This document shows positions 5,854 through 64,000 of a stretch of DNA of 64,000 nucleotides, one piece after another. Positions within the stretch are counted from its first letter, which is position 1, and every line of letters starts with the position of its first letter. The stretch comes from a virus. The translations under genes were made by a program, and so were the position numbers. Under the pieces are notes generated by a model. That model was not told where the DNA came from. It saw only the letters and a list, made by a program, of their open reading frames with translations, and made no database searches. The stretch spans positions 59,756 to 123,755 of IMG/VR virus record IMGVR_UViG_3300036651_001908; one strand, given 5' to 3'.

Positions 5854-5886
5854 CCCCCGGGTCGATGGTAGGGACAGGAGAGTGCC

Positions 5887-6722: not shown

Positions 6723-7279
6723 TGACGCGGCTCACCGTGGCGCTCCGGAACTTCCTGGTGCAGACGCCCGAGATGCAAAATCTTGTTTCCGCGGGCACCA
6801 TCGGCCACGGCGTGCACTGGCCAGACGGCTGGGTCTTCGCGGACATGTCCTACGCGAGCATCGAGAAGTACAGCGCCAAGGCCATGATCGTGCTGACCGA
6901 GTCCGGCAACTACAACCCGATGAACGTCTACAACACCATGCAGTTCCCTCGGGTGCTCCTTGACATCTGGGCCTCGCCCACCCGGGACGCCAATGGCTCC
7001 CCGATCAAGGACGACGCGGACAACATCGCGGAGAACATCTTCTCTCAGATCAAGCACTACGTGCACATCACCCACCCTGCGGTGCACTCCACATCTCCGG
7101 CCTTCATGGGCTCCCCCGGGAGCATGCTCCAGTGGGGGACCGCTGCGGAGATGGCGAGCAACACCGGTGTCTTCATCGGTGACTGCACGTATACGAACGG
7201 ACCTGTCTACTCGAAGGTGACGGACGGGAACGGCGTCTTGATGGCGCGCTACACACTCGGCGTACAAGTCGTCGGGTAA
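6722..7279 (+). CDS. Tail terminator-type protein
   Basis: 185 residues, start overlapping the previous stop (TGATG). The N-terminal helix and alpha/beta pattern plus position between the head-closure and tail-tube genes fit the tail terminator that caps the tube. An exact AAATCTTSTT copy (6778-6787) encodes Asn-Leu-Val near residue 20. Confidence 0.55.
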   Translation: MTRLTVALRNFLVQTPEMQNLVSAGTIGHGVHWPDGWVFADMSYASIEKYSAKAMIVLTESGNYNPMNVYNTMQFPRVLLDIWASPTRDANGSPIKDDADNIAENIFSQIKHYVHITHPAVHSTSPAFMGSPGSMLQWGTAAEMASNTGVFIGDCTYTNGPVYSKVTDGNGVLMARYTLGVQVVG

Positions 7280-7304
7280 CTCAACCCAGGAGGCCACAGA
7301 GCCC

Positions 7305-8360: not shown

Positions 8361-8578
8361 CTACGACCGTTGAACTTCGGTGTCCTACCGGGTTCCGCAG
8401 GCTCTTCTCGAAACTCATCCTGGCGGGCGAGCGCCCCCGGGTGACAGGAGGCAATCTCCTGGAGTTCGCGTGCTCCGACTGCCGGAAGGAACTCAGGGAG
8501 CAGGGCACGGCGTGTCGCCTCGTGCTGCACCGGTTCGACCTGGCCGGGGAACTCGTGGAGTCCTTGGTGCTCGAATGA
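8357..8578 (+). CDS. Small Cys-containing protein next to the glycosyltransferase
   Basis: 73 residues, ATGA overlap with the glycosyltransferase stop. Cysteines near residue 9, in ACSDC (about 40-43) and in TACR (about 53) could form a small zinc-binding site. Tight coupling to the glycosyltransferase suggests a linked role, but the function is unknown. Confidence 0.7.
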   Translation: MTTTVELRCPTGFRRLFSKLILAGERPRVTGGNLLEFACSDCRKELREQGTACRLVLHRFDLAGELVESLVLE

Positions 8579-8637
8579 GTCCGGACCGATAGTACCTCTT
8601 CGATAGCCCAAGGGGGCAAAGAGAGGAGTCGCCAGAG

Positions 8638-9243
8638 ATGGCTACTACGCAGATTTACGAAGGCTTTTCGCTTTCGCACGCCGCCATCCTTGACGGCCAG
8701 TCCGACGACGCTCAGGTGAACTTCGGTACCTTCTACGGCGTCCGATCCGGTTCGATCGCACTCCAGGTGCAGTCGTTCGACAACACGGGTGACGACGCGG
8801 TGCTGAGCACCTGGTACTGGGCTGACAAGGCCACGGTCACCATCACGTCGGGGTACATCCCGTTCCAGACCATCTCGGTGCTGACCGGCTCGCAGATCAC
8901 CTCCTCGGGTGCTGGCAACTCGGCCATCTACCAGTTGCCCCTCTGGGAACTCGGCTCCATGAACACGTCGCCTCGCCCGATGATGGTGCGCGTTCCCTCG
9001 AAGGACTCGGCGGGCAACATCCGCCAGTTGGACTTCATTCTGTACAAGGTCCAGTTCGAGCCGATTTCGTTCACCGGCCCCGACTACAAGGTCGGCCTCC
9101 TCGTGAACTACACCGGCACCGCGCTGATGTCGTCCATCGATGAGAAGGGCAACCCCGTCCTGGACTCCCAGACCGGTCTCCCCTCGAAGCAGATCGGCCG
9201 TCTGGTCTCGTCCGGCGTGGGTGGCGCTGACACCCTGATGTAA
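8638..9243 (+). CDS. Major tail (tube) protein
   Basis: 201 residues, ATG behind GAGGAG. A Gly/Thr/Ser-rich beta protein directly upstream of the frameshifted tail chaperone pair and the tape measure, the canonical position of the siphovirus tube protein. No C-terminal Ig-like extension is seen. The 59-base gap before it holds ACCGATAGTACC, a candidate late promoter element. Confidence 0.8.
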   Translation: MATTQIYEGFSLSHAAILDGQSDDAQVNFGTFYGVRSGSIALQVQSFDNTGDDAVLSTWYWADKATVTITSGYIPFQTISVLTGSQITSSGAGNSAIYQLPLWELGSMNTSPRPMMVRVPSKDSAGNIRQLDFILYKVQFEPISFTGPDYKVGLLVNYTGTALMSSIDEKGNPVLDSQTGLPSKQIGRLVSSGVGGADTLM

Positions 9244-24588: not shown

Positions 24589-24879
24589 GTGACAGATTCC
24601 GATGAGCAGGAGTTGGCTGCCGCTGCTCTAGAGGACGCGCTCCTCAGGTACATGCGGGCCCGGACCGACAACTCAGAGACCATGGTTCTAGAGGGATACA
24701 TCTTCGAGGCCTTCGGGCGCACGATGGAGAACCTGGACAACCACGAGACCAGCCACATCTGGGGACACATGGACAGCCAGCCGGTGCACATCACCATCGG
24801 GCTGGCCGAGATGCTGAAGTTGACCGTGAAGGATTGGTTCCTCAACGGTGAGCCCCGAGATGGTGACGACGACGACTGA
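24589..24879 (+). CDS. Acidic hypothetical protein before the sigma factor
   Basis: 96 residues from GTG 24589 behind GAAGGAGG. Acidic throughout, ending in a run of Asp. It overlaps the sigma-factor start as TGATG, so the two are co-translated. An acidic partner next to a sigma factor could be an anti-sigma protein, but that is speculation. Confidence 0.7.
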   Translation: MTDSDEQELAAAALEDALLRYMRARTDNSETMVLEGYIFEAFGRTMENLDNHETSHIWGHMDSQPVHITIGLAEMLKLTVKDWFLNGEPRDGDDDD

Positions 24880-25610
24880 TGCTCGACGCAGTTCGGGCGG
24901 AGTTGGTTCGGAAGAACGTCGCCCTCGCCCGCTATCTAGCACGGGTTGCGTACGAGCGCAACCCGACAGAACTAGAACTTGACGAGGTGACCTCCATCGC
25001 CTACCAGGGGCTGGTGACCGCCGCCATCCGCTGGGACCCCATCGGGCAGAACATCGATGAAGAAGGCCTCCGTGAGACGGCCAAACACCCTTCCGGAAGA
25101 GCGTTTGCAGGGTATGCTCGACAGCGGATCGTGGGGGAGATACTGGATTGGCAGCGACGACGCGACCACGTTCAGCGATCCTACCGCACCATCTACAAAA
25201 CCCTGATCGCAGCCGGGTTTACCGGCTCCTTCGATCAGGGGCCGTCCGCGAAGACGCTGGCCGCGAAGTTGGGGCTAGACGAAGAACGGGTACGTCGTGT
25301 AGTATATGCCGTACACGCATCACCCGTAAGCGTGGAAACAGTTCAGGACGAGACACAGGTATCCCATGCCGAATATGATTTCGAGTCTTCCGCCGTGGAG
25401 ACCTCGATCAAGCAAGCCGTCGTGCTCGCCTTGCAGCAACTGCCTACGGTTCAACGCCACGTAGTTGCACTGCGCTACTATCGCGGGTGGGAATTTCAAG
25501 CGATAGCAGTTGAGTTAGGCGTCAGCCTCCCTGTAGTTCGTGAAGCACACTCTGAAGGAGTGATTGCTTTACATGCTGCAATGCGCCGACGCGCCCAGGA
25601 GTCCTCCTAG
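24879..25610 (+). CDS. Phage-encoded sigma-70 family factor (FliA/WhiG-like)
   Basis: 243 residues. Region 2 is visible (DEVTSIAYQGL, AAIRWDP, then FAGYARQRIVGEILDW and a RRDHVQRSYR segment), matching the group 3 pattern F-YA--RI-G-I-D--R--D-V-RS-R. A region 3-like segment follows (PSAKTLAAKLGLDEERV) and region 4 has QLPTVQRHVVALRYY and an IAVELGVSLPVVREAHS helix-turn-helix. It should direct host RNA polymerase to phage promoters; CCGATAGT-like sequences at late gene boundaries are candidate -10 boxes because FliA-type factors read GCCGATAA. Binding is inference. Confidence 0.85.
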   Translation: MLDAVRAELVRKNVALARYLARVAYERNPTELELDEVTSIAYQGLVTAAIRWDPIGQNIDEEGLRETAKHPSGRAFAGYARQRIVGEILDWQRRRDHVQRSYRTIYKTLIAAGFTGSFDQGPSAKTLAAKLGLDEERVRRVVYAVHASPVSVETVQDETQVSHAEYDFESSAVETSIKQAVVLALQQLPTVQRHVVALRYYRGWEFQAIAVELGVSLPVVREAHSEGVIALHAAMRRRAQESS

Positions 25611-28244: not shown

Positions 28245-28792
28245 TGCGTGGGCTGATCGCACTGGCGAACAGCCGCATGACCATCGTGGATGCCTACCGG
28301 CAGTGTGGGCACGACATCTATGAGGCCTACGGCGCCAAGTTGTACTGCCCGTGGGGCTTCCTGCACCACGACGGTGGCACCTCCCGCTCCCTGCGGCTGT
28401 ACCTGGATGACAACTCCTCCTACTGCTTCGCCTGCTCCGAGCGACTGGATCCGGTGGGGGTGTACCGGAAGACGCACGACCTCTCGGCCAAGGCTGCGGC
28501 CGAGCGGATCCTGGAGGACACCAACTACCGGCCACCGACGCCCGAGCAGGTGTGGGCGGACGCCCTGGCCTACCACCCGGAGCCAGACCGTACTGCTCTT
28601 GCCGCTGCGCTGGAGATGTACTTGACTGACCTCGATCCCGACTTCGAGGAGCACGCGCTCACCGGGGTGGTCAGCCACTATTACTCCGCGGTGCTGGAAC
28701 TACTGTCGTCCGTCCATACCGATGAGGACGCTGCGCTCTGGCTGGCCATGGCCAAGACCGGCATGGCCGGAAAACTTGAAATCAGTGGTTGA
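28244..28792 (+). CDS. DNA primase-type CHC2 zinc-finger protein
   Basis: 182 residues from ATG 28244. The first 75 residues resemble the zinc-binding domain of bacterial and phage primases: LYCPWGFLHHDGG, then SLRLYLDDNSSYCFACSE, with ligands Cys-His-Cys-Cys, then a helix region. The rest is helical; no TOPRIM or catalytic polymerase domain follows, so this is either the zinc-finger half of a split primase or a regulatory primase protein. Position beside DnaB supports a priming role. Confidence 0.75.
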   Translation: MRGLIALANSRMTIVDAYRQCGHDIYEAYGAKLYCPWGFLHHDGGTSRSLRLYLDDNSSYCFACSERLDPVGVYRKTHDLSAKAAAERILEDTNYRPPTPEQVWADALAYHPEPDRTALAAALEMYLTDLDPDFEEHALTGVVSHYYSAVLELLSSVHTDEDAALWLAMAKTGMAGKLEISG

Positions 28793-28817
28793 CAGCGTGG
28801 TGTAGAGAGACTATGGT
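28789..28817 (+). promoter_or_regulatory. Sigma-70-type promoter
   Basis: TTGACA at 28789-28794, 17-base spacer, TATGGT at 28812-28817. Expected start near 28824, ahead of the gene at 28857. Confidence 0.7.
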
Positions 28818-28856
28818 GTAGATCACAAGGTCACCAAAGATCCTGAGGAGGACACC

Positions 28857-29096
28857 ATGACCAACAACACCACTCTCCGTCTCGGACAGCCCGTCACCTA
28901 CACCGACAGCCGCGGCTACCAGAAGGCTGCCTTCGTGGTCGGCACCAGCGACTCGGTCCAGCCGGGCCACGACCTGCCCGTGCCCGATGAGGGCCACGCG
29001 CACCTCGCCATCTTCTCCCCGACCGGTGCGGTCTACGCCCGGCACAACATCCCGGAGGCCGTGGACGCCTTCTCCACTCAGGCCTACACGGTCTGA
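28857..29096 (+). CDS. Small hypothetical protein with its own promoter
   Basis: 79 residues behind GAGGAG. A small beta protein (LRLGQPVTYTDSRGYQKAAFVVG, split across strands) with no recognised family. It lies between a consensus promoter and a strong terminator and so is probably a separately and highly expressed early transcript. Confidence 0.75.
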   Translation: MTNNTTLRLGQPVTYTDSRGYQKAAFVVGTSDSVQPGHDLPVPDEGHAHLAIFSPTGAVYARHNIPEAVDAFSTQAYTV

Positions 29097-42283: not shown

Positions 42284-42312
42284 TTGACACGGACCTCGAA
42301 GGTGTGTACTAT
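42284..42312 (+). promoter_or_regulatory. Strong sigma-70-type promoter
   Basis: TTGACA (42284-42289), 17 bases, TACTAT (42307-42312), continuing as TATAGAGG. Expected start near 42319, ahead of a GGAG site and ATG 42357. Confidence 0.85.
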
Positions 42313-42356
42313 AGAGGTATCAGACAAACACCACCCTGCTACCAAAGGAGCACACC

Positions 42357-43187
42357 ATGTGGATTTTTCTTCCAAGCGGCCTCTTGATGCCGTCCTCGTT
42401 CCCCGCCGACAAGGTTCCCGCCGAGTACCTGAAGCCCGAGTACGACCTTCAGATCCGGACTCGCACCCTTTCGCACCTGGAGAACTTCCTGAACGAGTAC
42501 ATGGCACCTGGCACGTACTCCGCCATTCAAGCCACGCCAGAGATGGACTACAACTACCGGGTCTACTGCTCGCACGACGACTTCGCGTGGGCGATGGGCA
42601 AGGCAATCGCCGCGATCGACTACAAGAAGTTCAAGCCGACCGCTGAGGAGAAGAAGGAGGACGGCACCTACCGGTGGGGCAAGGACTCCAAGGCCTACCA
42701 CGATGTGCTCAACTCGATCTGGAGCACCGTCACCCTGCTGGGCAAGCCTGGCGGATGGTGGGGCCCGTACTCCGAGACCAACCCCAAGGGCTACAAGGCC
42801 TCCGAGTTCCACTCCCGCTACGGGCTCTCCAAGCCGTCCAAGTACACCTCGTGGGGTAGCAACCCGCTCTTCTCCTCCGAGACGGAGCACAGTGGCTACA
42901 ACTGGGCCGACTACCTGCCGGACGACGACTACATCGGGCACGACGTGGCCCCGTTCGACTCCCACGACCTGGACTGGTCCCCCACCGCTGAGGAGGAGGC
43001 ACAGTTCATCATCGATGACCTGAAGAGGGCACAGATCCCGACCAGCGAGTGGCGGGACTCGTGCACCGAGGACGAGTGGATCGCAATCCGGTCCTACTTC
43101 GACCGGGAGGTGAAGAGGGAGAGGCGCGAGGCCAAGCGGGCTCGTCGTCGGGAGAACCGCCGTCGCTCCCACATCAAGGCGGCGTGA
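42357..43187 (+). CDS. Hypothetical protein with MWIF-type N-terminus
   Basis: 276 residues behind AAAGGAG. The hydrophobic MWIFLPSG start, a Tyr/Trp-rich centre (WSTVTLLGKPGGWWGPYSE), an acidic part (PDDDYIGHDVAPFDSHDLDW) and a very basic Arg/Glu/Lys C-terminus are visible. Strong promoter and terminator suggest abundant early expression from a single-gene unit. No function recognised. Confidence 0.75.
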   Translation: MWIFLPSGLLMPSSFPADKVPAEYLKPEYDLQIRTRTLSHLENFLNEYMAPGTYSAIQATPEMDYNYRVYCSHDDFAWAMGKAIAAIDYKKFKPTAEEKKEDGTYRWGKDSKAYHDVLNSIWSTVTLLGKPGGWWGPYSETNPKGYKASEFHSRYGLSKPSKYTSWGSNPLFSSETEHSGYNWADYLPDDDYIGHDVAPFDSHDLDWSPTAEEEAQFIIDDLKRAQIPTSEWRDSCTEDEWIAIRSYFDREVKRERREAKRARRRENRRRSHIKAA

Positions 43188-43676: not shown

Positions 43677-43705
43677 TTGACCCTTACGGGGGTTGGGTGT
43701 AGCAT
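43677..43705 (+). promoter_or_regulatory. Sigma-70-type promoter inside an inverted repeat
   Basis: TTGACC (43677-43682), 17 bases, TAGCAT (43700-43705). A perfect 11-bp inverted repeat (43682-43692 and 43718-43728) brackets the -10 and start site and includes the ribosome site GTAAGGAG. Confidence 0.7.
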
Positions 43706-43735
43706 ATTGACACTCGCCCCCCGTAAGGAGCCCCA

Positions 43736-43981
43736 ATGCCTAACATTCAGTCTCTATCGTTCACGCGGTACTCGATCACGCACGCCCTGCCGTCCACCCT
43801 CTCGGACCTGGAAGGCGACGTGACCGCCGCGTACGCGCACTTCCAGGCCAACGGTCACGGAGCCCAGGTGCTCCCGGAGACCTTCGGGCTCGAACTCGAA
43901 GGCAGCGACCTGGTCATCTCCTGGGTCATCCAGGAGAGCCCGGTGATCAACGCAGTCACCTCCGCTCCCACAGCGCAGTAG
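43736..43981 (+). CDS. Small hypothetical protein with its own promoter
   Basis: 81 residues behind GTAAGGAG. Begins with beta-type LSFTRYSITHALP, then a helix (LSDLEGDVTAAYAHFQANG) and a strand (GSDLVISWVI). The inverted repeat over promoter and ribosome site suggests tight control. No family recognised. Confidence 0.7.
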   Translation: MPNIQSLSFTRYSITHALPSTLSDLEGDVTAAYAHFQANGHGAQVLPETFGLELEGSDLVISWVIQESPVINAVTSAPTAQ

Positions 43982-49172: not shown

Positions 49173-49432
49173 CAGACGTACGTGCCTTCCGGATCCTTGA
49201 TCCAGACCTCGGCGTCGTTCGGCACGGTCACGGAGGCCTCACCGAAGGCGAGGACGCAGTACCCGTTCTGTCCATCGAAGAGGGCCGTGATGGGTTTGGA
49301 CGGGATGCCGGGGTCGAATGACATGGTGCGGCTGGTCACGAGCGAGACGGGCATGCCCACCTGAACTTCGTCAGCCTGGAGGACGGTGATGCGGTCGTTG
49401 ATTCGGCGGTGCGCCGCGGTGGTGTTGGTCAT
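49172..49432 (-). CDS. Small hypothetical protein from a leaderless promoter
   Basis: 86 residues from ATG 49432. Beta-rich (VQVGMPVSLVTSRTMSF, ASVTVPNDAEVWI). The promoter's -10 ends 6 bases before the ATG and no ribosome site is present, so translation is probably leaderless. Confidence 0.65.
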   Translation of the reverse strand: MTNTTAAHRRINDRITVLQADEVQVGMPVSLVTSRTMSFDPGIPSKPITALFDGQNGYCVLAFGEASVTVPNDAEVWIKDPEGTYV

Positions 49433-49436
49433 GGTT

Positions 49437-49595
49437 CTATAGTACATCCGTCGAAGACGGACCGTCAAGCACCAGGTGCACCACGTAGAGCGCTTCGTCC
49501 ATCCGCTTTAGAAACCCCTCATCGTGGATGGGGTAGGCGGCGTCCAGCCAGTGCAGGATGCGGGCGCAGGCGGCAGCCCGCTCTTCGTCCTTCAC
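49437..49595 (-). CDS. Small hypothetical protein
   Basis: 52 residues from GTG 49595 (GTGA overlap with the stop upstream). Helical with an ACARILHWLDAAYPIHDEGF segment. Its 3' part overlaps the promoter of the next gene. Function unknown. Confidence 0.55.
   Translation of the reverse strand: MKDEERAAACARILHWLDAAYPIHDEGFLKRMDEALYVVHLVLDGPSSTDVL
49439..49468 (-). promoter_or_regulatory. Leaderless promoter for 49172-49432
   Basis: On the minus strand: TTGACG (49468-49463), 18 bases, TACTAT (49444-49439), then 6 bases to the ATG at 49432. Confidence 0.75.
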
Positions 49596-50002
49596 TCGGG
49601 ATCCACCATCTTGCGGTTCACCATGCGCTTCGGCGGCTGAGGGACCTGGTCGGCCGGGGTGACCTTCGCGGGCTCGGCACCCTTGGCCTCCTGCTGGCCG
49701 GTGCCTGGGGCGTAGGTCTTCGTCTCGGAGGTCCAGACAAACGGGTGCTCTTTGTCCCACTCGGCGGGCTCGTCGTCGTGGTGGCAATCGTCGTGCCTGC
49801 GCGCCCAGGCAGCGGCCCAGAAGATGGCGGCGATGGCGAACGCGATACCGATGGCAGCGACTGCATCAGGCCAGTTCATGGTTCTCTTCTCCTTGTAAAT
49901 CTTGTTCTCATGGATCTTTCCGAACCGTCGCTCCAGGGTCTCGCGCATCTCTTGGAGTTGTTCGCGTTCTCGATCGCTCGTGGGCTCCCTCAATGCAGCC
50001 AC
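49592..50002 (-). CDS. Membrane protein with two possible starts
   Basis: 136 residues if it begins at GTG 50002, which overlaps the upstream stop; 95 residues if it begins at ATG 49879, which has an excellent ribosome site (AAGGAG). The long form adds a charged helical N-terminus before a transmembrane helix (IGIAFAIAAIFWAAAW) and a Pro/Lys-rich tail. An exact AAATCTTSTT copy (49897-49906) lies just upstream of the internal ribosome site. Both forms may be made. Confidence 0.6.
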   Translation of the reverse strand: MAALREPTSDREREQLQEMRETLERRFGKIHENKIYKEKRTMNWPDAVAAIGIAFAIAAIFWAAAWARRHDDCHHDDEPAEWDKEHPFVWTSETKTYAPGTGQQEAKGAEPAKVTPADQVPQPPKRMVNRKMVDPE

Positions 50003-50265
50003 TCTCCTTCGTCTATCCACCGCTGGAGGGTGGAGACATCATCTTCTAGAACCACCGGCGTCTCTGCCGTGATGGGCGTGCGGATCGGAGGCGGGTCGGG
50101 TGCGATGAACTCGGGCATGCAGGCTAGTAGCCAGTCCTCATGCCGGAGAAGCACTCGCTTGAGCGCGATGAGGAACGCGTCGGTGGGTTCCTTGTTCGGG
50201 ACGCCCCAGAGTGTGCTCAACAGTTCCCGGGCGTAGTCGCGAACGCGGTCATCATGCTTCGCCAT
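49990..50265 (-). CDS. Small hypothetical protein
   Basis: 91 residues. N-terminal helix with basic and Leu residues (YARELLSTLWGVPNKEP), a middle Pro-rich part and a C-terminal acidic helix. Overlaps neighbours at both ends. Function unknown. Confidence 0.6.
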   Translation of the reverse strand: MAKHDDRVRDYARELLSTLWGVPNKEPTDAFLIALKRVLLRHEDWLLACMPEFIAPDPPPIRTPITAETPVVLEDDVSTLQRWIDEGEWLH

Positions 50266-50572
50266 GTAGAGAGTCCCTGATCCTTTTGACGCGACGGTGG
50301 TTCACACCGAACTCGACCATCAGTTGATAGCCGGTGTACCCCTCACGCAGCAGGTCGAGGATGGCCCCGTCAGTGATGTACCCGTTGTTTGGATTCGGCA
50401 TGCCGCGCTTCCGGAAGCCGTGCACGGTGCGGTAGGAGACACCGGTCTCCTCAGCGATGATCCCAGTTTCGGCGCCAGCCTTGATCATCTGATCGATCTT
50501 CTGGTAAACCCGCTCCGCGAACTCAGGGTCACGCTGCCAGTTCTTCGGCAGGGTGCTCGGTTGGTGCCTCAT
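50252..50572 (-). CDS. Helix-turn-helix DNA-binding protein
   Basis: 106 residues from ATG 50572. Two recognition-helix patterns: TGIIAEETGVSYRTVHGFRKRG (central) and GYTGYQLMVEFGVNHRRVKR near the C-terminus, resembling a resolvase-type HTH repeated twice. A candidate regulator and possible reader of one of the operator-like elements. Confidence 0.7.
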   Translation of the reverse strand: MRHQPSTLPKNWQRDPEFAERVYQKIDQMIKAGAETGIIAEETGVSYRTVHGFRKRGMPNPNNGYITDGAILDLLREGYTGYQLMVEFGVNHRRVKRIRDSLHGEA

Positions 50573-50892
50573 CACATCCATCCCTCGTAGGGGTTGTCGT
50601 CGCTCACGTGCACCCACTCGGGGGCGTAGCGCTTCGCCGTGCCCAGCAGCCAGTCTCGACCCACTGGATTTGCAGTATGCACGCGAATCTCGTTCGGCCA
50701 CTTCTCGTTCTCGATCATCCAGGTGAGTACCGGCCGCGACGTGTCGTCAGTCGAGGTGCCACCGAGGTCGTGGTCGAACGAGACCACTTCGAAATCATGT
50801 CTGCTCAGCAGGGTGATGGCTTGTGCAGCGGACTGTGCCAGGTGGGTGAACTCGGCAGGCAGCACACGCTCGTCATCGATGTACAGACGCAT
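50572..50892 (-). CDS. Receiver-like domain protein (cyclic-phosphate processing type)
   Basis: 106 residues from ATG 50892. RLYIDDERVLP at the start and VVSFDHDLGGTSTDDT near the middle match the conserved acidic pockets of the receiver-like family described with cyclic-phosphate processing (cREC). Enzymatic roles of that family are only partly known. Coupled by TGATG to the HTH gene downstream. Confidence 0.65.
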   Translation of the reverse strand: MRLYIDDERVLPAEFTHLAQSAAQAITLLSRHDFEVVSFDHDLGGTSTDDTSRPVLTWMIENEKWPNEIRVHTANPVGRDWLLGTAKRYAPEWVHVSDDNPYEGWM

Positions 50893-50996
50893 CAGTCCCT
50901 CTTGTCCTGCCAGAGCCGACAGTCCTTGCACACCGAGCCACCACCAACGCGGTTCTGCCAACGGTGCCCGAACAGGGCACAGATGATCTTCTTCAT
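50892..50996 (-). CDS. Very small zinc-knuckle protein
   Basis: 34 residues, start and stop overlapping both neighbours as TGATG. Contains CALFGHRWQ and CKDCRLW, enough for one Cys3His site. Function unknown. Confidence 0.5.
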   Translation of the reverse strand: MKKIICALFGHRWQNRVGGGSVCKDCRLWQDKRD

Positions 50997-51133
50997 CAGT
51001 CCACCTCGAAAACAGTGGGCCGCTTCAGCAATTCGCGCAGGCGTGGCAGATCCTTCGGCGGTTCGTCCAGCATCTTCTCGACCTGTGCGAATTGCTCCGG
51101 CGTCAGCACATATCTTGTTTCGTTCTCATCCAT
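50996..51133 (-). CDS. Possible DUF1778/TacA antitoxin-fragment-like peptide
   Basis: 45 residues from ATG 51133. LTPEQFAQVEKMLDEPPKDLPRL and the following RPTVFEVD end resemble the C-terminal, toxin-binding tail of DUF1778 antitoxins of acetyltransferase toxins (pattern L---F--F---LD-PP---P-L--L). The DNA-binding N-terminal half is absent and no toxin gene is adjacent. It might neutralise a host toxin; this is a motif-level guess. Confidence 0.5.
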   Translation of the reverse strand: MDENETRYVLTPEQFAQVEKMLDEPPKDLPRLRELLKRPTVFEVD

Positions 51134-58136: not shown

Positions 58137-58402
58137 CAGAGCGGCCTCACCGTCCAATGCTCGACGCCTCGCCCGCATCGGCACCGCACGTAGTTGCCGA
58201 TGTCTTGCATGTGGAGCGTGTGCCGCCCGACGCACCACAGTTTCACTAGAGGGGACGACGTGAGCGTGGCGCAGCCCACATCCACCTCCGCCACGTACTT
58301 CGCCACGATGGTGCACCGGTGCTCCGGCTCGACCGAATCGCAGCGTAGTTCTGGCTCGTCCAGGAACAGCAGGACTAAATCTTCTTCTTCCAGGGTCTCC
58401 AT
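58136..58402 (-). CDS. Cys-rich paralog family member B
   Basis: 88 residues. METLEEEDLVLLFLDEPELRC, HRCTIVAKYVAEV, LWCVGRHTLHM, VRCRCGRG, HWTVRPL: nearly the element order of members A and C. Exact AAATCTTSTT copy at 58377-58386 encodes Glu-Glu-Asp-Leu at the same place as in member A. Confidence 0.65.
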   Translation of the reverse strand: METLEEEDLVLLFLDEPELRCDSVEPEHRCTIVAKYVAEVDVGCATLTSSPLVKLWCVGRHTLHMQDIGNYVRCRCGRGVEHWTVRPL

Positions 58403-58878
58403 CAGACCTCGAACTCCTCCAGTTTCTCGTCAATCGAACGCAGCGCTTGGAACTCCTCGGGGAACCTCAGGTTGTTGTTCTCCTCCCACGCCTCGGCCCA
58501 CTTCATGTAGCCACTCTTGCCCACGTTGCGGTGGCGACGCCGCGACCGCTGCACTCGACTGCCGTTGCGCCCCACGGCCTTCGTCGGCCAGGCGGGCTTG
58601 GCCAGCATCTCGGGGTGGCGTCCCTTCCAGCCGGGCAGGTTGTCGCACGGGCAGCCAACAGCGCCGAACCCCCAGGTGATCCGGTTCGTCTTCGGGTCGT
58701 AGTAGTTCACGCAGTTGCCCCAGGCACAGCGGATGCGGATGCTCCGTGCCTCCTCCTCCGCACGCTCGGCACGGCGCGTCTCGCGCGTGGTGTGGTCGTT
58801 CAGGCTTTCGGACCAGGTCCGTATCTCGTCCCAGGTCATTCGCGGGGTGTGGTCGTGCTTGCGCCGTTGCTTCAGCAT
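58402..58878 (-). CDS. Basic Cys-containing hypothetical protein
   Basis: 158 residues from ATG 58878 behind AGGAGA. Basic helical start, then IRCAWGNCVNYYDPKTNR, VGCPCDNLPGWKG and a basic RVQRSRRRHRN segment. Possibly a nucleic-acid-binding zinc protein. AATTCTTGTT (58890-58899) lies just upstream of the ribosome site. Confidence 0.65.
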   Translation of the reverse strand: MLKQRRKHDHTPRMTWDEIRTWSESLNDHTTRETRRAERAEEEARSIRIRCAWGNCVNYYDPKTNRITWGFGAVGCPCDNLPGWKGRHPEMLAKPAWPTKAVGRNGSRVQRSRRRHRNVGKSGYMKWAEAWEENNNLRFPEEFQALRSIDEKLEEFEV

Positions 58879-59017
58879 GGTGGTCTCCTAATTCTTGTTT
58901 TCCAGGCAGCCGCTCGTTCGCTCGGTGCCACCTATGCCGGTACGGCTCGGTCAGGTACTCTTCGCCCCAGAATATAATACGCAGGCACTCCGCGCAATAG
59001 GCAGGCCCCGCGGTCAT
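58430..59017 (-). CDS. Zinc-finger-like ORF running through the next gene
   Basis: Starts at ATG 59017 with a credible N-terminus (YCAECLRIIFWGEEYLTEPYR, then HRWHRA) but has no stop until 58430, so its C-terminal ~150 residues lie out of frame over the 58402-58878 gene. The short N-terminal protein is probably what is meant; a stop codon may have been lost. Confidence 0.4.
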   Translation of the reverse strand: MTAGPAYCAECLRIIFWGEEYLTEPYRHRWHRANERLPGKQELGDHHAEATAQARPHPANDLGRDTDLVRKPERPHHARDAPCRACGGGGTEHPHPLCLGQLRELLRPEDEPDHLGVRRCWLPVRQPARLEGTPPRDAGQARLADEGRGAQRQSSAAVAASPPQRGQEWLHEVGRGVGGEQQPEVPRGVPSAAFD

Positions 59018-59283
59018 ATCGGTAGCACGGTGTAGTGGCTACAGGGCAGCGTGCATGCGCAGGTGGTGCCCCACTCGCATTGCTTCAGCCAGTAGTTGTA
59101 GCGCGCTTGGCACCAGGGCACCACCGCTTGCTTCGTCCGGGAACAGGCATTGGTCGCGTAGCAGAGCCACTTCGCTTCGACTAGGCAACCGTGCTTCGTG
59201 ATCGTCGCCTCGCAGCGAATCTCGTGCTCGTCCTCTAGAAACAGTTCCAGGTCGGTCTTCTCTAGAACATCAGGAATCGGCAT
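59014..59283 (-). CDS. Cys-rich paralog family member C
   Basis: 89 residues. VLEKTDLELFLEDEHEIRC, HGCLVEAKWLCYA, PWCQARYNYWL, CACTLPC, HYTVLPI. Same layout as members A and B with extra Cys. Eleven or so Cys/His in 89 residues suggest a compact metal-bound fold. Confidence 0.65.
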   Translation of the reverse strand: MPIPDVLEKTDLELFLEDEHEIRCEATITKHGCLVEAKWLCYATNACSRTKQAVVPWCQARYNYWLKQCEWGTTCACTLPCSHYTVLPI

Positions 59284-59491
59284 CGTCCACCTCGTGGTCG
59301 CAAAGCATCTCGTCCCCCTCGTGGCAGTGGTCGCAATCGAAATCGCAGCGCATCTGCTCGACCTCGTGCATCCGTCCGGCCAGGTCCAGCACCTCGTGCG
59401 CTTCGGCCTTCAGGCCATCGCGGAACAGGATCAGTGCCCGGAATGCCAGCGCTTCGGTAATCTTGGCCCGCTCCCGCTCGCTCAGTTGCAT
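59270..59491 (-). CDS. Small helical protein with Cys/His tail
   Basis: 73 residues. N-terminal helices (RAKITEALAFRALILFRDG) and a CDFDCDHCHEGDEMLCDHE tail rich in ligands and acids. Overlaps member C by 14 bases. Confidence 0.6.
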   Translation of the reverse strand: MQLSERERAKITEALAFRALILFRDGLKAEAHEVLDLAGRMHEVEQMRCDFDCDHCHEGDEMLCDHEVDDADS

Positions 59492-59613
59492 CAGAAATCA
59501 TCTTCCCCACAGGCAGCGCAGTACCAGGTACCGGCCGGTGTCTCTTCCAGTTCATCCACCGCTCGACAGTTCGGGCAGGTGAAGTGAGGCACCATGCCCC
59601 AGTCGTTCTCCAT
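59491..59613 (-). CDS. Very small zinc ribbon
   Basis: 40 residues. FTCPNCRA and WYCAACGED spaced as a classic four-Cys ribbon. The end (Glu-Asp-Asp-Phe-stop) lies in a near-copy of the dispersed motif. Confidence 0.6.
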   Translation of the reverse strand: MENDWGMVPHFTCPNCRAVDELEETPAGTWYCAACGEDDF

Positions 59614-59813
59614 CAGATCGTCTCGTCCGCGAACTCGGTCATCCGGTTCAGCAGATCCTTCTCGGTGTCCGAATAGCCCAACTTCGGCTCGGCCAACTTC
59701 AGAATCTCGACCCAGCCCAGGATGGTGTCGGCCTCATCCGTCGTCAGCGGGAAGTAGGCGCGGGTCGGCAGCGGCGCAGCGTCAGGCCATGGCCCGACCG
59801 GATACTCCTCCAT
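59613..59813 (-). CDS. Small hypothetical protein
   Basis: 66 residues from ATG 59813 (TGATG overlap). ADTILGWVEILKLAEPKLG helix and acidic C-terminus. Function unknown. Confidence 0.6.
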   Translation of the reverse strand: MEEYPVGPWPDAAPLPTRAYFPLTTDEADTILGWVEILKLAEPKLGYSDTEKDLLNRMTEFADETI

Positions 59814-59965
59814 CAGAAATCCTTCTTTGCGTGTGCGTTGAGGATGTCGCGGACTCGACGCGTGCTGATCCAGCCCTTGAGCCCTTGCTCGTCCTCTTCG
59901 TCACACGCGCTTCGTAGTGCGAGCGCCAATAGAGACATGGGCGGAATCTTCTTCTTGCCGAACAT
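59813..59965 (-). CDS. Very small helical protein
   Basis: 50 residues from ATG 59965. KKKIPP near the start is encoded by GAATCTTCTT (59944-59953) and the end AKKDF by AAATCCTTCTT, both near-copies of the dispersed motif. Function unknown. Confidence 0.5.
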   Translation of the reverse strand: MFGKKKIPPMSLLALALRSACDEEDEQGLKGWISTRRVRDILNAHAKKDF

Positions 59966-59966
59966 C

Positions 59967-60104
59967 TCAGTCCCCTTTCGTGAACTTGTTCAGAACCGCG
60001 ACCGGGACAAGCGCCCTCGACACGTGGTTCTCGTCGCAATACTTCGATATGAATGCACAGTCACAGTCGTACCAAGTGACCCACACCTCTTCGGCCTCGG
60101 GCAT
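59967..60104 (-). CDS. Very small Cys-containing protein
   Basis: 45 residues from ATG 60104. VWVTWYDCDCAFISKYCDE supplies three Cys. Overlaps the upstream stop as TGATG. Confidence 0.5.
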   Translation of the reverse strand: MPEAEEVWVTWYDCDCAFISKYCDENHVSRALVPVAVLNKFTKGD

Positions 60105-60295
60105 CACATCCCCTTCGTCTTGGCAATGATCCGGCGCAGTCGCACCACCGGTATCTCCTTGTAGCCGATCGTCTCGGCACGCTCGCACTCGTCCTGAATC
60201 TCCCGGAGAGCGGTGCCCAGGCGTTGGATGGTCAGGCCTAGAACCTCGACCAGTTCCCCGTGGTTCAGCCGCGCTAGATCCTCAGGCAGCGTCAT
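60104..60295 (-). CDS. Small coiled-coil protein
   Basis: 63 residues. LNHGELVEVLGLTIQRLGTAL and a Glu/Arg-rich helix, ending with a basic RLRRIIAKTKG. Overlaps the next upstream gene by 14 bases. Confidence 0.6.
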   Translation of the reverse strand: MTLPEDLARLNHGELVEVLGLTIQRLGTALREIQDECERAETIGYKEIPVVRLRRIIAKTKGM

Positions 60296-60539
60296 CGTCG
60301 TCCTTTCCCATCAGTCGAATCTCCACACTCGACGGCGGCTCCAGGATCAAGAATTGGATCCGGACCTCCTGGTCCAGCAGCAGCCGCGCGACCCGGCCCA
60401 AGTCCACCGCGTCCAGCGTCAGTGACTCGCCCCCACCTCGGAGGATCAGCGCAGCCAGCGCCAGGCGCAGGTCCTCGACCTCGGCTTCCAGGTGCACCCA
60501 GTGGTTCATCTGCTTCGTCAGTTTGTCTTCTAGAGTCAT
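60282..60539 (-). CDS. Small coiled-coil protein from a leaderless start
   Basis: 85 residues from ATG 60539. LEAEVEDLRLALAALILRGG coiled coil, then a beta-type half and an Asp-rich end. TATGAT at 60551-60546 lies 6 bases before the ATG; the -35 is weak. Confidence 0.6.
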   Translation of the reverse strand: MTLEDKLTKQMNHWVHLEAEVEDLRLALAALILRGGGESLTLDAVDLGRVARLLLDQEVRIQFLILEPPSSVEIRLMGKDDDDAA

Positions 60540-60545
60540 GCACGT

Positions 60546-60551
60546 ATCATA
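60546..60551 (-). promoter_or_regulatory. -10 box of a leaderless promoter
   Basis: TATGAT on the minus strand, 6 bases before ATG 60539, in the same place as in the other leaderless promoters; no good -35 within the terminator sequence upstream. Confidence 0.5.
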
Positions 60552-60570
60552 CACCCGTGTCATAGACAAA

Positions 60571-60610
60571 CGGAAGGCCCCCGGCGCGAAATCTCACCGG
60601 GGGCCTTCCG
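60571..60610 (-). terminator. Terminator of the secreted-protein gene
   Basis: A 14-bp perfect stem (60571-60584 with 60597-60610), followed on the minus strand by TTTGTC. Ends transcription of 60617-61156. Confidence 0.85.
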
Positions 60611-60616
60611 GATTCC

Positions 60617-61156
60617 TCAGGTGTGCGAGCAGCGGGTGCCGCCCAGCCACACCTTCACGTCACCGTTGCTCCAGTCCATCGGGACTGCCTTGAGCGACGT
60701 GCCACGGGCGGTCAACTTCCCGGTCTTCAGCATCACGGGCACGCCGTGGATGCTGTACTGCACCACGTAGGTCGCGTGCGGATAGTTGCCGAACACCAGC
60801 AGCGAGCCGGGCTCGTCAGCGTTGTACTGACAGGGCATCGAAACCCCGGACTGAATCTCGGCAGCGAGCGCCAGGGCACTCGTGGTGAGGCTCGGTGCGG
60901 CTCCCCGCGCTCGACTCGAACGGGTGCGGACGGTGGTGCCGCTCACACCTGCGGTGGTGACGGGAGGGGCGACGTTGGGGGTCGCTCCGGCAGCGATTGC
61001 GGCCTGAATCTCAGCCACAACCGATGCGACCGAGACGGTGCCGGGTGCGGGGGTGGGGACGGGAGAGCCAGCATCGGCCGCCGTGGCGGCGAATAGGCTC
61101 CCGGCGAGGATGGCGCCTCCTGCGAGACATGCGGTGGTACGGGTGCGGATGTTCAT
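60617..61156 (-). CDS. Secreted protein with signal peptide
   Basis: 179 residues from ATG 61156 behind AAGGAG. A signal peptide (basic start, hydrophobic core ending ATAADAGS, about 30 residues) precedes a Pro/Ala/Thr linker and a globular domain with MPCQYNADEPGSLLVFG, WSNGDVKVWLGG and a terminal RCSH; two Cys could form a disulfide. Separate promoter and terminator. Surface or medium location is inferred; possible superinfection or host-envelope role. Confidence 0.7.
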   Translation of the reverse strand: MNIRTRTTACLAGGAILAGSLFAATAADAGSPVPTPAPGTVSVASVVAEIQAAIAAGATPNVAPPVTTAGVSGTTVRTRSSRARGAAPSLTTSALALAAEIQSGVSMPCQYNADEPGSLLVFGNYPHATYVVQYSIHGVPVMLKTGKLTARGTSLKAVPMDWSNGDVKVWLGGTRCSHT

Positions 61157-61201
61157 GATGTGCTCCTTGGTGGTGGTGCGCCCTCCTGAGGCGCTACAGC
61201 A

Positions 61202-61230
61202 ATGGTAGCACCTTCTATGACACACAGCAA
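61202..61230 (-). promoter_or_regulatory. Promoter of the secreted-protein gene
   Basis: Minus strand: TTGCTG (61230-61225), 17 bases, TACCAT (61207-61202); start near 61195 gives a 39-base leader with a ribosome site, unlike the leaderless promoters nearby. Confidence 0.7.
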
Positions 61231-61260
61231 GGGCCCGCAAGAACGAAATCTTGCGGGCCC
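61231..61260 (-). terminator. Terminator of 61275-61829
   Basis: Perfect 12-bp stem (61231-61242 with 61249-61260) with a 6-base loop, abutting the next promoter. The loop and right arm contain AAATCTTG, a partial motif copy. Confidence 0.8.
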
Positions 61261-61274
61261 TCAGGGTCGGATGG

Positions 61275-61829
61275 TTACGGAAGCCAGCGGTGGTTCAGCG
61301 CATAGCCCCCATCGGTGTGGTGACGGTCAGGGGACCACAGACGCCACTCCCGCGACTTGATCCAGTCCTGACGCCCGGACATGTACTTGCTCCGCGCCTC
61401 GGCGTCCTGCGACCAGGCCAGCGCCCCATCGTTGCCGTAGAGCCGGTCGTACTCACGGGCGAGGTCGCCGTAGTCGTTGCTGTGATCGTTGCTCGGGCAG
61501 CCCTTGCCGATGCAATCGAACCCATCGGGGTAGAGCGTGCGGCTCAGGCTGTAGACAACATGAAATCCCATGTCCATCCCAGCGCCACCGACCACCAGTG
61601 CGTCGGTCTTGGGCGAAATCTTCATGCCCAGCGCCTTCGACACTCGCCAGGTGTGGACGAGAACGGTGTCCTTGCTCGGGATGGTGAGCACGTCGATGTG
61701 GCGGCTCATCCCGGAGGACGCGACGTGCTTGAGGGAGGTCCAGACGGTGTCGCCGGGACGGAGGGACTGACGGAGGTCTGCGATTGCTTCGGCCTGCTCG
61801 GTGCGCTCGGCCTTGGTGGTGGTTGACAT
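61275..61829 (-). CDS. Conserved phage hypothetical protein (SGMSR-type)
   Basis: 184 residues from ATG 61829. Contains VWTSLKHVASSGMSRHIDVL, a GGAGMDMGFHVVYSLSRTLYP core and a Cys pair in FDCIGKGCPSNDHS. This combination recurs in conserved phage and plasmid proteins of unknown function. AAATCTTCAT (61616-61625) encodes Met-Lys-Ile-Ser. Confidence 0.75.
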   Translation of the reverse strand: MSTTTKAERTEQAEAIADLRQSLRPGDTVWTSLKHVASSGMSRHIDVLTIPSKDTVLVHTWRVSKALGMKISPKTDALVVGGAGMDMGFHVVYSLSRTLYPDGFDCIGKGCPSNDHSNDYGDLAREYDRLYGNDGALAWSQDAEARSKYMSGRQDWIKSREWRLWSPDRHHTDGGYALNHRWLP

Positions 61830-61835
61830 ACTGCG

Positions 61836-61864
61836 AGCGTAGCACTCTCTACACCACGGCGCAA
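61836..61864 (-). promoter_or_regulatory. Leaderless promoter for 61275-61829
   Basis: Minus strand: TTGCGC (61864-61859), 17 bases, TACGCT (61841-61836), 6 bases to ATG 61829. Confidence 0.8.
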
Positions 61865-61874
61865 GAGGCAGTTT

Positions 61875-62243
61875 CTAGCACTCCTCCGAAATCATGTTTT
61901 CTTCTCTCCTCCGCAGCAGGGTGGCCACATCGATCAGGGCTCGCTTGCGCGCTTCCCGGTCGCGGTCCCTCTGCCGCATCTTTGCGGGCAGGTGCCGGAG
62001 CCAGGTCCAGAAAATCCAGTTACAGACTCCGATCACCACGACCCCGATCGTCACCAGCCCGGATCCCGGCCGGGCAGCCCAGTCGGCGCTCGGGTTCGGG
62101 CCGTCCATCAGTCCACCGATGACGCAGAGGATCGTGCCGGGGAATCCGATCACAGCGATCAGCACCAGCCAGCCGAGTCCGATCACCAGCCGTCCCAACA
62201 GGTGGGCGACGGCGGCACGCTCGGCCGCCTCGTGTCTGCTCAT
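61875..62243 (-). CDS. Membrane protein from a leaderless promoter
   Basis: 122 residues from ATG 62243. Two or three hydrophobic segments (about 17-47 and 63-83), then a basic C-terminal helix (AKMRQRDRDREARKRAL). AAATCATGTT (61889-61898) encodes Asn-Met-Ile near its end. Confidence 0.65.
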   Translation of the reverse strand: MSRHEAAERAAVAHLLGRLVIGLGWLVLIAVIGFPGTILCVIGGLMDGPNPSADWAARPGSGLVTIGVVVIGVCNWIFWTWLRHLPAKMRQRDRDREARKRALIDVATLLRRREENMISEEC

Positions 62244-62249
62244 ATCCGT

Positions 62250-62278
62250 ATCATATCACCATGTAATAGTCACGGCAA
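62250..62278 (-). promoter_or_regulatory. Leaderless promoter for 61875-62243
   Basis: Minus strand: TTGCCG (62278-62273), 17 bases, TATGAT (62255-62250), 6 bases to ATG 62243. Confidence 0.8.
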
Positions 62279-62348
62279 GGTGGTTTTCCTGAAGACTGTG
62301 AAATCTTCTTTTACACCCTGCACCCCAAACGTAGATCATGATGTTCCC

Positions 62349-62600
62349 ATGACAGGAAAGCATCCGGACCTGAACCGCAAACCGTTGACCATCAGCATGG
62401 TCATGGACAGCCTCAGGGAGCAATGCGCCATGGTGGAAGAGGCTCGTGCACTCGTGTCAGAGCGCATCGCCGTACGGGACAGGATGATTGCCGACGCCAT
62501 GGTGGAAGGCATCTCGTACAAGCGTCTAGCAGCCGTCACCGGCCTCAGCCAGCATCGGTTGTGGCGCATCAGCGTGGATGCCCAGGAGGACACGCTATAG
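62349..62600 (+). CDS. Helix-turn-helix protein
   Basis: 83 residues from ATG 62349. Helical N-terminus (MVMDSLREQCAMVEEARALV) and a C-terminal HTH (VEGISYKRLAAVTGLSQHRLWRIS). No good ribosome site, so leaderless or weak translation is likely. An exact AAATCTTSTT copy (62301-62310) lies 39 bases upstream. Confidence 0.65.
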   Translation: MTGKHPDLNRKPLTISMVMDSLREQCAMVEEARALVSERIAVRDRMIADAMVEGISYKRLAAVTGLSQHRLWRISVDAQEDTL

Positions 62601-62601
62601 T
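62596..62601 (+). promoter_or_regulatory. -10 box of a leaderless promoter
   Basis: TATAGT, 6 bases before GTG 62608; the -35 region is poor. Confidence 0.55.
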
Positions 62602-62607
62602 GTACGC

Positions 62608-63552
62608 GTGACTGCCATCCAGCAAGTGTCCATCAGGCACTTCCAGAGCCTCGTGGACGTATCCCTCACGCTTGGCAACTTCACCGTGATTGTGGGACCC
62701 AGCAGCAGCGGTAAATCCGCGTTCGTCCGCGCCCTCCAGACACTCACCCACAACGCCCGTGGGACCGCCTTCATCACCCAGGGCAAGCCGGGTTGCAGCA
62801 TCACGGCGACCCTGCCCACTGCGATCGTCACACTCACCCGCTCCCGCTCCTCATCAGCCACGGATGCCTACGGGGTCCGCACCGACGAGAACGATCAGCG
62901 GCGGTACACCAAACTCGGGGGCTCAACCCCACCGGAAGTCACCAGCGTCTTCGGGCAAATGGCGGACCCCAGCGCTATCGCATCCCAGTTCGATCCGCCG
63001 TACCTGCTCACCCAATCGCCAGCAGAGGCAGCCAGGACACTCGCGGCCCTCACCGGCTCGGACGTGGTGCTCGAAGGAGCACGGGAAGCCAACAGACGGC
63101 GGCTCGAAGCAACAGCCACGCTCCGCACCCGCTCATCCGACAAGGCCAAAGCGGAACAAGAATTAGCCAGCCACGCCCAGCACGCCAGCCAATCGGCCCA
63201 TCTCGACAGCGCGGAACCGCACCTCACCGATGCAAAAGCACTTCTGCACCAGTGCGCAGCGCTCCAGGGCCTTCTGGATCACATCTCGGCAGACTCCACG
63301 GGCATCCAGATCCACCGGGAAGCACTCGCCAGCCTGCCCAGCATCCCCGACCTGGCACCGCTCGACACACTCAGCGACAGCATCAGGGCACTCCGGTACA
63401 GCATCGCCAACGTGACCAGCAGGGCCTACAGCGTCCGGGACCTGAAGAGCACGCTCGACGGGCTCGAAGTCGAAATCGACCACGCATCAGAGCGCTACGA
63501 CGAGACGCTGCATGCGCTCGGGGTCTGCCCCACCTGCCATCAGCCGGTCTAA
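62608..63552 (+). CDS. Rad50/SMC-like half protein ending at a zinc hook
   Basis: 314 residues from GTG 62608. N-terminal ABC-type domain with IRHFQSLVDVSLTLGNFTVIVG and Walker A GPSSSGKSAF (about 31-40); a coiled coil follows (about 170-305) and the protein ends with LGVCPTCHQPV, a Cys-x-x-Cys hook like that of Rad50. The second arm and the Walker B/signature half are missing: the stop comes two residues after the hook. It may pair with a host protein or the phosphoesterase at 40779. Confidence 0.75.
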   Translation: MTAIQQVSIRHFQSLVDVSLTLGNFTVIVGPSSSGKSAFVRALQTLTHNARGTAFITQGKPGCSITATLPTAIVTLTRSRSSSATDAYGVRTDENDQRRYTKLGGSTPPEVTSVFGQMADPSAIASQFDPPYLLTQSPAEAARTLAALTGSDVVLEGAREANRRRLEATATLRTRSSDKAKAEQELASHAQHASQSAHLDSAEPHLTDAKALLHQCAALQGLLDHISADSTGIQIHREALASLPSIPDLAPLDTLSDSIRALRYSIANVTSRAYSVRDLKSTLDGLEVEIDHASERYDETLHALGVCPTCHQPV

Positions 63553-63666
63553 CACTCCGCCATACCCAGCAAATACGCCCCAAAACCCCGCAGAACCTGC
63601 CCAAAACCCCGCATCAACGCCAGCAGATCCCAAACCGCAAATGTGTACTACTCCAGAGCCCGCACC

Positions 63667-63849
63667 TCAGCGGACCATCCAGACGTAGAACTGCATCGTG
63701 AGCCACCGGTCGAAATCTTCTTGCCGACTCCCAGGGGCAGGCTTGGTCAACCGGCCTAGATACTCCCAGCCGCGCAGTCGATACCGGCTCATCTCGGTGT
63801 CTCGCACCACGGCACACTCGTTCGGCGGCTCAGCAGCCACGCGTAGCAC
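63667..63849 (-). CDS. Small hypothetical protein
   Basis: 60 residues from ATG 63849. NECAVVRDTEMSRYRLRGWEYLG then a helix with RQEDFDRWLT encoded over the motif copy 63713-63722. Function unknown. Confidence 0.55.
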   Translation of the reverse strand: MLRVAAEPPNECAVVRDTEMSRYRLRGWEYLGRLTKPAPGSRQEDFDRWLTMQFYVWMVR

Positions 63850-63893
63850 CCCCGGAATGCCATCGTGGCGTCGGATAGAGCGACGAACAGCCC

Positions 63894-64000
63894 CTATTGG
63901 GCATCGTCACCCTCTGCGACATTCCCAGAGCCTGATTTGCCCCACCACGCGTGGTCCCCGATGGGCGCTCCGCGCCATGCACCGTCCACCTGGCGCAGTC
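63894..64000 (-). CDS. C-terminal end of a gene continuing past the window
   Basis: The open frame enters from the right edge and stops at 63894-63896. About 34 residues are visible (GDHAWWGKSGSGNVAEGDD included) and look like coding sequence. Nothing can be said about function. Confidence 0.45.
   Translation of the reverse strand, partial: LRQVDGAWRGAPIGDHAWWGKSGSGNVAEGDDAQ

Follow-up and report, generated by a model that had tools for sequence, protein, structure and literature searches.

Predicted leaderless promoters, and a promoter cassette in leaderless and leadered forms, in a phage related to Microbacterium phage Magritte

The DNA considered here is a stretch of 64,000 nucleotides (the window) that covers positions 59756-123755 of the virus record IMGVR_UViG_3300036651_001908, whose total length is 123,755 bases, and the elements in question are promoters lying immediately before the start codons of genes in its right arm. 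An earlier note on this DNA had proposed a common layout for them (a TTGNNN -35 hexamer, 17-18 bases, a TANNNT -10 hexamer, 6 bases and the start codon), which would place the transcription start at the start codon itself. The sequence makes it probable, in our view, that these promoters, of the sigma70/SigA type, give rise to leaderless mRNAs, and that several of them are copies of a duplicated cassette for which a leadered form also exists.

The last 361 bases (window 63639-63999) match the first 361 of the record (L002 1-361) at all but two positions, and G001, an independently assembled contig from this virus, spans the record junction without a break. The right arm therefore adjoins the left end. 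The record is listed as linear, but the genome is either circular or terminally redundant. The nearest and sole cultured relative is Microbacterium phage Magritte, which infects Microbacterium foliorum (45% identity for the DNA polymerase, polA, and 68% for the capsid protein, MCP), and an actinobacterial host is likely for the present phage as well. No close DNA relatives of the record were found in the phage records searched.

Promoters and start codons of the right arm

The predicted leaderless promoters of the arm and the hairpins next to them are as follows (window coordinates):

49430-49468, minus strand: leaderless promoter; -35 TTGACG (49463-49468), 18 bp, -10 TACTAT (49439-49444), 6 nt, ATG 49432, 86 aa
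52186-52224, minus strand: leaderless promoter, divergent pair with the next; TTGCCA (52219-52224), 18 bp, TATGAT (52195-52200), ATG 52188, 141 aa, phrog_572
52238-52275, plus strand: leaderless promoter; TGGACA (52238-52243), 17 bp, TACTAT (52261-52266), ATG 52273, 81 aa
56078-56115, minus strand: leaderless cassette promoter (CAGT family); TTGCAT (56110-56115), 17 bp, TACGCT (56087-56092), GTCAGT, ATG 56080, 171 aa, DUF6011
56116-56149, minus strand: hairpin with a 14-bp stem, directly adjoining the -35 of 56080; likely terminator of the upstream unit
56932-56969, minus strand: leaderless promoter; TTGTGC (56964-56969), 17 bp, TACTAT (56941-56946), ATG 56934, 50 aa
56983-57011, minus strand: hairpin upstream of the 56934 promoter, arms GAAAGCCGCGG/CCGCGGCTTTC
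60537-60575, minus strand: leaderless promoter; TTCCGT (60570-60575), 18 bp, TATGAT (60546-60551), ATG 60539, 85 aa, heading an operon of overlapping genes
60572-60609, minus strand: hairpin with a 13-bp stem, overlapping the -35 of 60539
61827-61864, minus strand: leaderless cassette promoter; TTGCGC (61859-61864), 17 bp, TACGCT (61836-61841), CGCAGT, ATG 61829, 184 aa
62241-62278, minus strand: leaderless promoter; TTGCCG (62273-62278), 17 bp, TATGAT (62250-62255), ATG 62243, 122 aa

The spacing on which the earlier note rested proved exact, with the -10 box ending 6 bases before the ATG at all seven starts that it named (49432, 52188, 56080, 56934, 61829 and 62243 on the minus strand, 52273 on the plus strand). 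Their -10 hexamers are TACTAT, TATGAT or TACGCT, all of the TANNNT type. A TTGNNN -35 is present at six of the seven, at 17 bp (56080, 56934, 61829, 62243) or 18 bp (49432, 52188), and 52273 departs from the description in having TGGACA at 17 bp.

Such an arrangement is far more frequent than chance would produce. The 17-bp version of the pattern (TTG-N20-TANNNT-N6-ATG) has five matches in the window against 0.10 expected, a number reached by none of 100 shuffles, and the 18-bp version has two against 0.04, so that both together give seven matches against about 0.14 expected from the shuffles. Six of these are named sites, the other (44887, plus strand) opening a poorly coding open reading frame (ORF). 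In a scan where all other -10-to-ATG spacings served as internal control, and with TTG required at 17 or 18 bp, seven ATGs of the window fell at gap 6, against a control-gap mean of 0.30 (Poisson P 3.5e-8), and no other spacing shared the excess. The excess extends to the whole record: among the 233 TANNNT boxes matching TATAAT at four or more of six positions, 26 stand 6 nt before an ATG, where control gaps have 3.25 each (P 2e-15), and gap 7 is also enriched, though less so (10 boxes). Leaderless GTG starts were also considered and rejected, since gap 6 shows no excess of GTG in the record.

Three further starts had been put forward as weaker cases, of which only 60539 is convincing, with the exact gap of 6 and, overlapped by a strong hairpin, an imperfect -35, TTCCGT; 62608 has a GTG start and no -35, and 22696 has a gap of 7 with the box TATGCT. 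The accompanying statement that internal genes of the same operons are joined by stop/start overlaps agrees with the gene map: 36 of 76 non-leaderless same-strand junctions in the arm overlap, in 32 cases by 1 or 4 bp, compared with 1 of 20 leaderless-called ones, fractions that are approximate because the ad hoc codon-score gene caller gave a bonus to the leaderless layout.

Several features of the reading frames suggest that the ATGs in question are true start codons. The median pairing energy with the anti-Shine-Dalgarno sequence is -3.8 kcal/mol at the leaderless starts and -8.45 kcal/mol for other genes. The G+C content at third codon positions is 0.75 in codons 2-7 and 0.85 in codons 8-20, against 0.60 upstream in the same frame, and stop codons occur once in 1127 codons downstream of the leaderless ATGs against 10 times in 460 codons upstream. 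Moreover, the product of 61829 has two independently annotated homologues, in Microbacterium phage Shocker and Caulobacter phage RBC63, whose starts align with its first residue; a Shine-Dalgarno (SD)-like GAAAGGA lies upstream of the Shocker gene.

The earlier note further took the layout to define the start codons and the transcription units throughout the accessory arm. The sequence gives good support for leaderless starts, but this extension is too broad, because the same promoters occur inside the window in leadered form, with an SD-preceded start 24-39 nt downstream of the predicted transcription start (+1). The cassette copy at 61195 is one counter-example, and three similar ones are found, one of them outside the arm:

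61156-61230, minus strand: leadered cassette copy; TTGCTG (61225-61230), TACCAT (61202-61207), predicted +1 at 61195 (AGC, not ATG), 39-nt leader with ACCACCACC and AAGGAG, then ATG 61156 of a 179-aa gene
61229-61262, minus strand: hairpin overlapping the -35 of the 61195 cassette
42284-42359, plus strand: leadered promoter; TTGACA (42284-42289), TACTAT (42307-42312), AGAGGT, predicted +1 at 42319 (ATC), 38-nt leader with AAAGGAG, then ATG 42357
43677-43738, plus strand: leadered promoter; TTGACC, TAGCAT (43700-43705), predicted +1 at 43712, SD AAGGAG, ATG 43736
28789-28859, plus strand: leadered promoter outside the arm; TTGACA, TATGGT (28812-28817), predicted +1 at 28824, SD GAGGAGG, ATG 28857

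A promoter cassette in two forms

The densest promoter array of the record lies outside the window, just across the record junction, at record positions 4,000-9,200. It comprises about ten cassettes reading TACCAT-YGCAGT-ATG or a close variant, many of them 80-115 bp from the upstream gene, and each heads one or two small genes. By their sequence, the window promoters 56080 and 61829 are members of this family, while the other named sites match the layout and not the letters. The full order of the cassette would be, often, a hairpin, then the TTGNNN -35, 17-18 bp, the TANNNT -10, GCAGT, and ATG AAn ... ACC ACC ACC. Since it spans the promoter through the first transcribed bases, the cassette carries the start codon and the first codons with it.

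A weight-matrix scan for the same promoter recovered copies without ATG at +1. When 20 cassettes are aligned, the information is found in the -35, the -10, positions -5 to -1 (the GCAGT discriminator) and the first transcribed bases (+1, +2, +4 and +5), that of the spacer being near zero. At +3, 13 copies have G and 7 have C. That the G copies read ATG is true by definition, the informative part being that the C copies keep the remaining sequence and have an SD: their predicted transcripts open with ATC, or in one case AGC, and continue through AA..CAACCACCACC to an SD and a start codon 28-39 nt downstream. An SD-preceded start shortly downstream is present in all seven non-ATG cassettes and in none of the 13 ATG cassettes (P 1.3e-5). 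The same association is seen among all strong promoters of the record (1 of 21 ATG sites, 10 of 21 others, P 0.004) and across all 14 phages (3 of 47 against 52 of 148, P 6e-5).

In the proposed mechanism, transcription from the sigma70/SigA-type promoters would begin with the A of the ATG, and the host ribosome would translate the resulting leaderless mRNAs without an SD. With C instead of G as the third transcribed base, the 5' AUG would be lost, the A/C-rich stretch would become a 5' untranslated region (UTR), and translation would use the SD and an ATG 28-39 nt further on. The nearest neighbours in sequence mix the two forms (5531 leadered and 7069 leaderless, 78% identity; 7405 leaderless and 2182 leadered, 83%), and the form has therefore switched between copies. 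We tentatively propose a single mobile or duplicating cassette with two interchangeable forms, in which the +3 base sets the mode of translation and the leaderless form stamps an MNAHTTT-like N-terminus on unrelated small proteins; this specific version is held with clearly less confidence than the leaderless promoters themselves. An in-frame N-terminal extension from the AUC of leadered copies was considered and rejected, the leader lengths (28, 29, 30, 32, 33 etc.) not being consistently multiples of three.

The leaderless products of the left arm begin MNAHTTT, MNESTTTT, MKQSTTT and similar. These unrelated proteins would be alike at the N-terminus because their start codon and initial codons are part of what was duplicated, and paralogy was rejected as the source, given that left-arm products produced no blastp matches among themselves. 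In leadered copies the DNA encoding the MNAHTTT-type stretch falls in the predicted UTR. CA-rich sequence downstream of the start codon reportedly raises both leaderless and leadered translation in Escherichia coli (Martin-Farmer and Janssen 1999, as cited in PMC9031893), and a similar boost would be a plausible reason for retention of the A/C-rich stretch.

About half of the cassettes are preceded by a GC-rich hairpin of 13-14 bp, whose 3' arm adjoins or overlaps the -35; whole-region folds range from about -27 to -39 kcal/mol. These hairpins resemble terminators that would insulate each unit, although their U-runs are short.

Other viral contigs searched with the exact cassette pattern contained no match, and a looser pattern recovered only G001, from the same virus, and a chance match in AT-rich DNA.

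Some further observations concern the same regions. The products of the window gene at 60617-61156 and of L002 5978-6538 are paralogues with 64% identity; each has a signal-peptide-like N-terminus and is encoded behind a leadered cassette. At L002 2756 (plus strand) a gap-6 ATG opens a 6-codon ORF (MKIFLG) with a strong hairpin within about 60 nt, possibly a short leaderless transcript, and L002 772 (minus strand), a promoter that scores very high at 19.6 bits (TTGACA..TACTAT), has no ATG at +1 and no SD-preceded start nearby, possibly serving a non-coding RNA. Just upstream of the outermost cassette, the 12-bp unit CTGGCGCTGCTG is tandemly repeated (L002 9201-9260). The most enriched 7-mer of the record is AAGATTT/AAATCTT, with 62 copies against 3.0 expected, 34 of them in the window (e.g., 54970, 54708 and 61252, minus strand; 26730, plus strand); it is found on either strand, in genes as well as non-coding DNA and in the loops of hairpins, with AA[GC] favoured before it. 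AGATCT is rare in the record (2), and AAGCTT and GATATC are absent.

Related phages and competing explanations

The -10-to-ATG spacing, for which the earlier note had suggested a scan of related phages, was examined in 13 relatives. The outcome is clear in G003, where the gap-6 count is nine times the background, and supported in G008, which has TTGACA-17-TANNNT-6/7-ATG sites; G010, G005 and Magritte present counts at gap 6 or gap 7 that are merely suggestive, and the others show no excess. The G003 promoter reads TTGACA-17/18-TCCTAAGAT-AGAGAC, followed by ATG at six sites, five of which have no SD-preceded start, or by ATCAAG...SD...ATG at six sites. The contig L200 presents the same ATG/ATC split. 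The geometry recurs among relatives and the promoter letters differ. In a minority form seen in G003 (L124:223), a 6-codon leaderless ORF contains the SD of the next gene.

Some observations speak against the leaderless interpretation or restrict it. An SD-like GGAG lies inside the promoter at two starts (56080 and L003:3097), the hairpins have only short U-runs (TCTTG) that overlap the -35 and no long U-tract, and the transcription start sites are themselves deduced from the -10/ATG spacing. As a general rule, a family-wide layout has to be rejected, clear or suggestive excesses being confined to about five of the 13 relatives, and Magritte offers few candidates at most, the majority with a gap of 7 and no good -35. 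Finally, host SigA is not the sole candidate reader of these promoters, for a sigma factor is encoded by the phage.

This last point deserves detail. The promoters have -35 and -10 hexamers at a distance within the 16-19 bp of sigma70-type promoters, and host SigA is the default reader because the elements fit an ordinary sigma70 promoter. The phage also has its own sigma factor (24879-25610, plus strand, 243 aa), a possible alternative reader of some of the promoters; it is FliA-like in phmmer searches, with regions 2, 3 and 4 (Sigma70_r4, E 6e-11), and kept in Magritte, where it is annotated only as a DNA binding protein. Were this protein the reader, the promoters would be middle or late ones and the leaderless layout would stay. 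Its conservation, and a -10 consensus (TACCAT) with a fixed discriminator that are specific to this phage, lend some weight to the idea, which we nevertheless regard as unlikely, given that the elements match ordinary sigma70 hexamers and spacing. The usual FliA-type -10 is GCCGATAA. It is not seen at these promoters, and the nearest solved relatives of the phage protein by sequence are FliA-type. The sequence itself shows the layout, the number and conservation of the copies, the pairing of ATG with a missing SD and of a missing ATG with an SD, and coding periodicity from the first codons; from it we infer the transcription start sites, host SigA as the reader, early expression, a terminator function for the hairpins and the mode of translation.

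The remaining alternatives deny the leaderless start or its meaning. Transcripts could begin upstream, the -10-like box and GCAGT forming a conserved operator or start-associated element before genes that are leadered without a recognisable SD. The conservation of GCAGT beyond the needs of a sigma70 promoter, the weak dyad TAC-N7-GTA and the repeated start-proximal elements of cluster K phages, which have no known role (PMC3203893), are in line with this. It remains improbable in view of the TTGNNN -35 at 17-18 bp, set in many copies directly beside a strong hairpin at which transcripts from upstream would stop, and of the non-ATG copies, whose SD and leader start exactly at the predicted +1; the start-associated sequences (SAS) of cluster K, besides, hold the SD core AGGAG, which the cassettes do not. 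A by-product of recent short-repeat duplication, with no functional meaning for the mode of translation, is an equally improbable account. Many left-arm copies are indeed recent duplicates (7844 and 8131 are identical across 36 bp upstream), but 49432, 52188, 52273, 56934, 60539 and 62243 are only about 50-60% identical to other copies and keep the layout, G003 has it with a different promoter sequence, and the spacer has diverged where the promoter elements and +1 have not. Least probable is that the ATG beside the -10 is not a start, the N-terminal segment being a 5' UTR and translation beginning at a downstream ATG or GTG. The A/C-rich stretch is UTR in the leadered copies, so that it could in principle be UTR elsewhere, and ACC repeats are low in information; yet 20 of 21 ATG sites in the record have no SD-preceded start downstream, codon-position bias is present in codons 2-7 as in codons 8-20, and the 61829 homologue is conserved from residue 1. 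Leaderless mRNAs from sigma70/SigA-type promoters remain the favoured explanation.

Known systems and significance

Leaderless genes, which account for roughly one gene in five in Actinobacteria, have as their signature a TANNNT box about 12 bp before the start codon (Zheng et al. 2011, PMC3160421); in mycobacteria they are about 14% of the annotated genes (PMC7148126). The phage promoters resemble those of PMC3160421 in having TAnnnT with its first T 12 bp before the start, at a frequency above chance, in a high-GC genome, and in lacking an upstream SD, with the two SD-like exceptions inside promoters noted above. They differ in belonging to a phage, in using ATG only, and in being partly carried by a duplicated cassette that has a leadered form too. 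As in the cluster K SAS (PMC3203893, PMC11373665), a repeated element stands before the starts, mostly ATG, of non-structural genes, and in the cluster K phage Adephagia the extended element (ESAS) carries a promoter and gene 90 is proposed to be leaderless (PMC11373665). The SAS is, however, a 13-bp element with AGGAG placed 3-9 bp upstream of the start, while the present cassette has no SD core between the -10 and the ATG and includes the start codon and first codons.

The same promoter with and without a leader is known from Mycobacterium smegmatis reporter pairs (PMC7148126), but those are built constructs, whereas the phage genomes hold natural copies in both forms. The 5'-terminal AUG on SD-led E. 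coli mRNAs and the leaderless small ORFs of mycobacteria (PMC4965119; PMC9031893) resemble the G003 minority form, although here the main contrast is between ATG and ATC at +1. The open-licence papers searched contained no account of a phage promoter repeat that is leaderless in some copies and leadered in others. The leaderless mode is probably a known actinobacterial pattern in a new phage, and what appears to be added is a single cassette, existing in two forms, that brings along its start codon and the codons next to it.

These results would provide rules for start codons and transcription units in a large and almost uncultured group of phages, in which SD-based gene callers would pick wrong starts. 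A leaderless promoter cannot be duplicated without some coding sequence being copied too, so that unrelated proteins would gain a common N-terminus. The near-identical natural promoters that differ in leader status may, in addition, allow one to ask why a genome mixes leaderless and SD-led initiation.

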